Below are positions 42,170 through 44,368 of a stretch of DNA of 64,000 nucleotides, one piece after another. The notes beneath the pieces are model-generated. The model ran no database searches, had not been told where the DNA came from, and saw only the letters and a program-made list of their open reading frames with translations. The translations under genes and the position numbers were made by a program. The first letter of the stretch is position 1. Each line of letters opens with the position of its first letter. The DNA is taken from contig JAJDUK010000045.1 of the NCBI GenBank assembly GCA_022826665.1, positions 43,503 through 107,502 on the forward strand. The letters are read 5' to 3'. Origin of the DNA: Alphaproteobacteria bacterium (GTDB taxonomy: Bacteria > Pseudomonadota > Alphaproteobacteria > UBA828).

Positions 42170-43216
42170 TTAGGGATCAAGGCCGAGCACCTCCATCAGC
42201 TCGCGCCACTCGCGCTTGGAAAGGCCACTATTTTCTTGATTGACCGATTTCCTTTTGGTCACCAAACGCTTTACCACGCTAAGCCCGCCGGCAGAGAGCG
42301 GTACGGCGTCCATCGTGTAGTCCCTGAAGGCCTGATGTGTCGCCGGCACCCAGTTCGCGACGATCTTGTCGAGGATCACCTCGGCGTAGGCGCGGATTTC
42401 GTACTGGGCGTGGTCGTCGGCCCGCAGCGAAAGGAAGTGAAGCAGGTTGTGCAGGTCAATTTTCCAGTAGAACTGGGTGTAGTAGTTGACCGGCAGCGCC
42501 GCGCGGGCGAGCTCGCGGGCGAGCCCCACGTGATTGGGGTCCTTCGTGTTGCCTCTCCTGTTCTCGTTGAGCAGGCTCCGATAGATGCCGTACGCGTTCT
42601 TGGAAATCCAATTGATGGCGGAAAGTGCTTGCTTGGCTTCGTCGCCCGTCAGTACATCATCCCGACCTTGCTTGTTGGTGCTGGACTGGGCGGCGAGCGC
42701 CAGGGGCTCCGTTACCGACGAGTTCACGGTAAACAAGTCGTCCATTCCGCTAGTGCTAGCCCGCCGACGCCCGACTTGCTCCTCCAGGACGGATTGGAGG
42801 TGCTCCACGTCCGGCACATAGAACTCGCGATCCAACTTGGAATAGCGTGCGGAGTACTCGTTGACGCTGGCGGTGCGGTGGCGAAGCCACTGGCGGGCGA
42901 CGAAGATCGGCGCCTTGATGTGCAGCTTGAGCTCGCACATCTCGAAGGGCGTGGTGTGGCGATGGCGCAGGAGGTAGCGGATCAGCGCGCGGTCCTCCCG
43001 CACGTGCCGCGTGCCCGCGCCGTAGGAGACCCGAGCCGCCTGCACGATGGCGGCATCGTCGCCCATATAGTCGATCACGCGGACGAAGCCGTGGTCTAGC
43101 ACGACGAAGTGCTCGTCGAGGATCGACTCCATGGCCCGCACTGTGGCTCGCTTGGTTAATTGTGCGGTAGCGGATTGGGCCTTCGTCTCCACCCGCTTGT
43201 GGTCGTCGGTCGGCAT
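42170..43216 (-). CDS. thyX: Flavin-dependent thymidylate synthase ThyX
   Basis: A 348-aa FAD enzyme that makes dTMP from dUMP with methylene-THF and NAD(P)H, replacing ThyA. The signature [14 protein letters not shown] (residues 112-125; RHRxxSxNxxSxR) is intact. The protein exceeds the usual length, partly from a segment of about 30 residues at about 140-172 ([21 protein letters not shown]). Codons there and in the C-terminus are less GC-rich than the neighbours. It is convergent with the lipoprotein gene and divergent from ssrA. Confidence 0.94.
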
Positions 43217-43306
43217 GGCGTCGGTGGTCCTCGGTGACTTGGGTCTGCGGGCCGCGTCGCCAATCGCGCACCGCCCTCACGGCCGCGCATAAATCCTTTG
43301 CCGCGG

Positions 43307-43336
43307 CTTCCATCGGGCACCGCGATCGCCTATATT
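43307..43336 (+). promoter_or_regulatory. Candidate ssrA promoter
   Basis: TATATT at 43331-43336 is a good -10, with CTTCCAT (43307-43313) as a weak -35 about 17-18 bases upstream. Transcription would begin near 43343, just ahead of the tmRNA acceptor piece. No other promoter-like element lies between the divergent thyX start and the RNA. Confidence 0.4.
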
Positions 43337-43339
43337 AGC

Positions 43340-43650
43340 GGGGCCGGCGGGAGACCGTCGACTATGGCGATAAACGCTGCTCGAAATAAGCGTTGCGGAC
43401 CCGGGGGCAGTACCCGGCGCCTCCACCACCCCTTGAGTGGGCGGCTCAAGTTGCGGGGGCGAACCAGGATCGACGTGCGTGGTAAAGGTGTGGTTTTCGC
43501 CCGGCATGGTACCGCCGTTATCGGGCCAACTCAGAGGTGCGAACGACAACGAAGTCGCACTCGCTGCTTAGCATCGCTAGGTAAGCGCGGCTTGGGGGGC
43601 GCCGGGCAACAGAAGCCCCCCGCTAACCCGGTATGCCAGCCGGGGTCATG
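43340..43650 (+). ncRNA. ssrA: Circularly permuted two-piece tmRNA (alpha_tmRNA type)
   Basis: The acceptor piece comes first and ends with encoded CCA at 43426-43428: T-stem CCGGG (43401-43405), loop GGCAGTA, CCCGG (43413-43417), then CGCCTCC-ACCA (43418-43428). The intervening hairpin CTTGAG/CTCAAG lies in 43429-43454. The coding piece starts GGGGGCG (43455-43461), which pairs with CGCCTCC to form a 7-bp acceptor stem with the G3-U70 alanine-identity wobble. GGATCGACG follows, then the tag frame 43539-43571, and a stem GGGGGGC (43594-43600)/GCCCCCC (43615-43621). This matches the permuted tmRNA known from alphaproteobacteria. Outer ends are approximate. It rescues stalled ribosomes with SmpB. 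Confidence 0.92.
43539..43571 (+). other. tmRNA proteolysis-tag reading frame ANDNEVALAA
   Basis: GCG AAC GAC AAC GAA GTC GCA CTC GCT GCT TAG within the tmRNA coding piece encodes ANDNEVALAA. The charged alanine would precede it, so the appended tag is A-ANDNEVALAA. ANDN is the alphaproteobacterial start and LAA the ClpX degron. Ten coded residues equals the E. coli tag and is shorter than several alphaproteobacterial tags I recall. Confidence 0.92.
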
Positions 43651-43732
43651 AATCGTCAGACATCCGAACGAACGACGGGCTTCGCGCGCGTCCCGCGCGA
43701 CGCAGACCGTGACCGTGACGAGGCATCCGGGC

Positions 43733-43795
43733 TAAGCTAACCGGTGGCGGCGAACCAGCGTGGTTTGGGGGCATCGGGCAACGGCAGCCCCGGTT
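43733..43795 (+). repeat. Degenerate partial copy of tmRNA coding-piece sequence in the sspB leader
   Basis: GCTAACCGGT, then GGCGGCGAACCAG (43746-43758), then TTTGGGGGCATCGGGCAACG...AGCCCC (43764-43790) echo GCTAACCCGGT (43622-43632), GGGGGCGAACCAG (from 43455) and TTGGGGGGCGCCGGGCAACA...AGCCCC (43592-43619). The last segment matches at 23 of 30 positions and keeps the stem-loop form. The tag frame is absent. The remaining 43651-43732 stretch shows nothing recognisable. Confidence 0.55.
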
Positions 43796-43819
43796 GAGCG
43801 GGCGGACACGGACGCGGCA

Positions 43820-44368
43820 ATGAGCAAGGACCTCATCGGTTACAACACGCTGGTCGAGAACGGCCTGCGCTCGGTGGTTCGCGAGGCCCTCCGCCGCGTG
43901 GCAGAGGAGGGCTGGCCCGGCACCCACCACGCCTACATTACCTTCAAGACCGCAGCGCCCGGCGTCGAGGTGCCGGATTTCCTGCACACGCGCTACCCGG
44001 ACGAACTCACGATCGTGCTTCAGCACCAGTTCTGGGGCCTGGAGGTCGAGGACGATTCCTTCTCCGTGACGCTGAGCTTCAACAAGGTGGGCCAGCGCAT
44101 CGTCGTCCCCTTTGCGGCGCTCACCAGCTACGCCGACCCGTCGGTCAAGTTCGGTTTGCAGTTTGGGGTCGCGCCGGAGGCGCGCGGAGAAATGACCGCG
44201 CCGGAGGCGCGCGGAAAGAAGGCTGAGCCGGAAGCGCGCGCAACAGGGTCGGTGCCGGCGGCAGGTGGGGAAAAGGCCCCGCCGGAGGCGGAAGCGGAAG
44301 AAGATACGGACGCGCCGGGGTCGAACGGCGAGAAAGTCGTTGCGCTCGACCACTTCCGCAAGAAGTAG
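43820..44368 (+). CDS. sspB: SspB-type ClpXP adaptor (alpha family)
   Basis: From ATG 43820 the protein is 182 aa; the track's GTG 43760 start lies in the repeat. The substrate-binding domain (residues 5-115) has GTHHAYITFKT, ELTIVLQHQFWGLEVEDDSFSVTLSF and YADPSVKFGLQF. A linker of three 9-aa repeats follows (118-144). The C-terminus EKVVALDHFRKK fits the ClpX-binding (XB) tail of alphaproteobacterial SspB. It binds ssrA-tagged proteins and delivers them to ClpXP; the tag RNA is encoded just upstream. No good ribosome-binding site is visible. Confidence 0.9.
   Translation: MSKDLIGYNTLVENGLRSVVREALRRVAEEGWPGTHHAYITFKTAAPGVEVPDFLHTRYPDELTIVLQHQFWGLEVEDDSFSVTLSFNKVGQRIVVPFAALTSYADPSVKFGLQFGVAPEARGEMTAPEARGKKAEPEARATGSVPAAGGEKAPPEAEAEEDTDAPGSNGEKVVALDHFRKK
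44171..44251 (+). repeat. 27-bp tandem repeat, three units, in the sspB linker
   Basis: Three 27-base units beginning GCGCCGGAGGCGCGCGGA (the third GAGCCGGAAGCGCGCGCA) encode APEARGEMT, APEARGKKA and EPEARATGS. The array is in frame and lies between the tag-binding domain and the ClpX-binding tail, so copy number would set the tether length. Confidence 0.9.

Follow-up and report, generated by a model that had tools for sequence, protein, structure and literature searches.

The 64,000-nucleotide window (the whole stretch of DNA that was analysed, lying on contig 48 of a 4.6-Mb assembly that is 99% complete) carries at 43304-43624, on the forward strand, what is almost certainly the single ssrA gene of this genome, a circularly permuted gene of the kind known from alphaproteobacteria, which would yield a two-piece tmRNA for tagging and ribosome rescue. 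tmRNA is a ribosome-rescue and protein-tagging RNA present in almost all alphaproteobacteria. The identity of the gene, its anatomy, its conservation and its partners are established by computation and are described below.

Identity and anatomy of the permuted gene

The Rfam covariance model alpha_tmRNA (RF01849) matches 43304-43624 on the forward strand over its full length (model positions 1-355 of 355) with 226.4 bits and an E-value of 2.6e-64, the gathering score, which is the curated cut-off of this family, being 50 bits. A second and newer covariance model, tmRNA_permuted (RF04321), matches 43366-43571 with 147 bits, and ARAGORN, a method independent of Rfam, calls a permuted tmRNA with the tag ANDNEVALAA at 43334-43662 on the same strand. 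An alpha-type permuted two-piece ssrA had been proposed by the sequence-only reading, which suggested as checks a covariance search with the alpha_tmRNA model and a tmRNA-specific search; both recovered the gene. The extent of 43340-43650 given there is about right when compared with the Rfam and ARAGORN limits, and the Rfam match begins upstream of 43340 because the RF01849 model takes in the promoter. The gene is missing from the open reading frame track because it is an RNA gene. The features of the locus, neighbours included, are as follows.

42170-43216, reverse strand: thyX, divergent upstream neighbour (TIGR02170, PF02511)
43304-43624, forward strand: full alpha_tmRNA match (RF01849, 226.4 bits), comprising promoter, acceptor piece, intervening hairpin and coding piece
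43331-43336, forward strand: likely -10 promoter element TATATT, predicted, where the Rfam alignment is conserved
43366-43428, forward strand: acceptor piece as far as RF04321 covers it, including the T arm, the acceptor strand CGCCTCC and the encoded CCA; the true 5' end lies further upstream
43429-43454, forward strand: intervening segment, presumably excised; it folds as a hairpin, and relatives keep a hairpin here
43455-43624, forward strand: coding piece, from the 5' strand of the acceptor stem (GGGGGCG) up to and including the 3' tail, which contains GGCAACAGAA; the 3' limit is approximate (ARAGORN, Rfam)
43539-43571, forward strand: tag reading frame ANDNEVALAA-stop (ARAGORN, gene positions 206-238), unchanged in six other congeneric loci
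43820-44368, forward strand: sspB, the downstream neighbour, coding for the ClpXP tag adaptor (PF04386, E-value 9.5e-41)

The order of the pieces is permuted, with the acceptor piece and its encoded CCA (ending at 43428) placed 5' of the coding piece (starting at 43455). The strand GGGGGCG (43455-43461) pairs with CGCCUCC (43418-43424) in 7/7 positions. The acceptor stem so formed has a G-U as its third pair (G3-U70), and a hairpin of -8.5 kcal/mol is predicted for the 26 nt that separate the pieces (43429-43454). In the tag frame, the resume codon, the ANDN start and the hydrophobic end are all present according to ARAGORN. Thus the piece order, the 7-bp stem with G3-U70, the hairpin between the pieces and the ten-residue tag ending in LAA-stop, all read by hand from the letters, were borne out. 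The minimum free energy of the tmRNA folded as a single strand is not below that of shuffled sequences (z -0.35), and a G+C-rich, pseudoknotted RNA can behave in this way. A scan for consensus promoters and terminators gave zero sites.

The alpha_tmRNA model search of the assembly returned one ssrA copy, and the 3' tail used as a DNA query found no match in the genome besides itself. A second tmRNA copy or a displaced fragment elsewhere in the genome was thus rejected, with one match by each method.

Tag length across the class

The ten-residue tag had been presented as notable among alphaproteobacteria, being short, and this part of the reading did not hold. All 17 readable loci of the same family, the present one counted, encode ten residues (11 ANDNEVALAA, 3 ANDNEMALAA, 2 ANDNEIAIAA and 1 ANDNEVAIAA). 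Among the 97 tags of other families, a set that leaves out the second copy L134 and counts in L006, which belongs to another family, ten residues occur in 25, eleven in 14 (one of them, GRDDGRAAAPV at L105, being a doubtful ARAGORN call) and twelve in 29. These counts cover the loci in which ARAGORN called a tmRNA. Ten is the second commonest length among the other-family tags, and therefore the compact tag is not special.

We also considered that the tmRNA is functional but that its ten-residue tag is an unusual specialisation making SspB and ClpX compete, a reading to which we give little credence. It could appeal to the fact that the tag is short relative to many members of the class, where lengths range from 9 to >20 residues (the very long tags being ARAGORN calls only). 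However, ten is the sole length read in its own family (17/17), and outside the family it is found in 25/97 tags, against 29 for the commonest length, twelve. An unusual tag length is thus rejected by the class survey. The E. coli ssrA tag has ten encoded residues with an ALAA end, and closely spaced SspB and ClpX sites in the tag would repeat the E. coli arrangement and would not be new. We retain the reading of an ordinary ssrA gene with an ordinary tag.

Two observations were made during the survey. Three loci (L127, L128 and L093) have long tags, known from ARAGORN calls only, in which an A/C-NDN-like motif appears twice (e.g. ANDNAQFVAANDNFVVEGDIAIAA); judged by these motifs, such tags possibly offer two SspB sites each. 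In addition, one genome (G113), whose main copy, L103, is normal and has the tag ANDNRAPVAVAA, holds a second, divergent tmRNA gene (L134, 72.8 bits, tag ANDNSPVAMAA), perhaps carried by a phage or an island.

The locus in relatives and the sspB leader

RF01849 matches were found in 28/30 genomes of the set of relatives and in 133/142 members of the class. An encoded CCA together with a seven-pair stem carrying G3-U70 is present at 112/115 class loci, by a permissive test that counts a pairing of this kind anywhere close to the expected position. Within the same family, the intervening segment varies in sequence and in length (22-61 nt), and a hairpin is predicted between the pieces in 17/17 loci, although it is weak in one of them (L008). 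The hairpin is kept despite this turnover of sequence and length, as would be expected of a spacer that is cut out.

The neighbours of the gene were also followed in the class. sspB lies downstream on the same strand in 87/113 loci, and thyX lies divergently upstream in at least 55/115 loci, a lower bound since many loci come with only 1 kb of flank. The order thyX (divergent), ssrA, sspB, which spans 42170-44368 in the window, is thus widespread in the class, and a literature search by title and abstract found no paper on this order in alphaproteobacteria. The SspB protein resembles chains of known structure (2qas, 2qaz and 2nys). Its C-terminal end, VVALDHFRKK, follows a long variable linker and is kept in relatives; comparison with E. 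coli SspB makes it the probable ClpX-binding tail. The same genome encodes SmpB (PF01668, E-value 1.6e-54) and ClpX.

Between ssrA and sspB, the segment 43757-43791 resembles the tmRNA 3' tail (43584-43619) with a local alignment score of 20, against at most 16 in 2000 first-order Markov resamplings of the spacer, and looks like a decayed partial copy. Two congeneric loci have similar decayed copies at this position, with scores of 15 (L018) and 19 (L019) that were each reached by 1/1000 resamplings, and local alignment found no such copy ahead of sspB in the congeneric L021, L023, L024 and L025. Searched against the Rfam families, the repeat gave zero matches. The likeliest origin of this sequence, which is decaying in the sspB leader, is a clade-limited partial duplication or the scar left by an element that formerly used the tmRNA gene. 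That it acts as a functional leader element, tying sspB expression or RNA stability to tmRNA-handling factors, seems highly improbable to us.

This decayed copy also bears on whether 43304-43624 could be a tmRNA pseudogene or a displaced fragment that an integrated element left behind, the working copy being elsewhere. Such a reading could draw on the copy and on the fact that tmRNA genes frequently serve as integration sites (PMC11915505), but the gene matches its model from end to end, its conserved acceptor stem and tag show no damage, and zero other copies exist in a 99% complete genome. We consider that it has next to no chance of being right, and the gene is taken below as the working ssrA.

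The sspB leader also contains the motif GTGACC-N18-TAAGCT (43709-43738), which, judged by eye, is kept in 5/6 other congeneric loci. From its letters, it looks like a candidate promoter of sspB's own.

Proposed function and relation to known systems

Homology to the known family is the basis for what follows on processing, charging, tagging and degradation. One precursor transcript would be cut around the intervening hairpin, giving an acceptor piece with its CCA end and a coding piece, which would be held together by the acceptor stem and by the helix that follows this stem. G3-U70 would direct alanine charging by AlaRS, and the charged tmRNA with SmpB would enter ribosomes stalled without a stop codon. 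Alanine and ANDNEVALAA would then be added to the protein and the ribosome released. Finally, SspB, the product of the adjacent gene, would recognise the AANDN end and ClpXP would engage the LAA end, leading to degradation of the tagged protein.

The gene resembles the two-piece alpha_tmRNA (RF01849) known from Caulobacter in its piece order, acceptor stem, encoded CCA and intervening segment, as well as in the ANDN start and AA end of its tag, its 3' tail with GGCAACAGAA and the position of its promoter. It differs from some members of RF01849, which have longer tags than the ten residues found here, and its intervening hairpin is short (26 nt). With E. coli ssrA it shares ten encoded tag residues ending in ALAA, whereas the E. 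coli gene is not permuted and its RNA is made of one piece. The permuted tRNA-like domain is shared with tmRNA_permuted (RF04321, 147 bits), a model that spans alphaproteobacterial, betaproteobacterial and cyanobacterial forms without clade-specific ends (PMC11915505).

This ssrA is thus a typical representative of a well known RNA family, and its mechanism offers nothing new. The analysis correctly annotates a standard housekeeping RNA gene, and the survey adds a modest context: in this class, ten-residue tags are common, and the tag RNA gene usually sits beside sspB, the gene of the degradation adaptor, and is often flanked by thyX on its opposite side.
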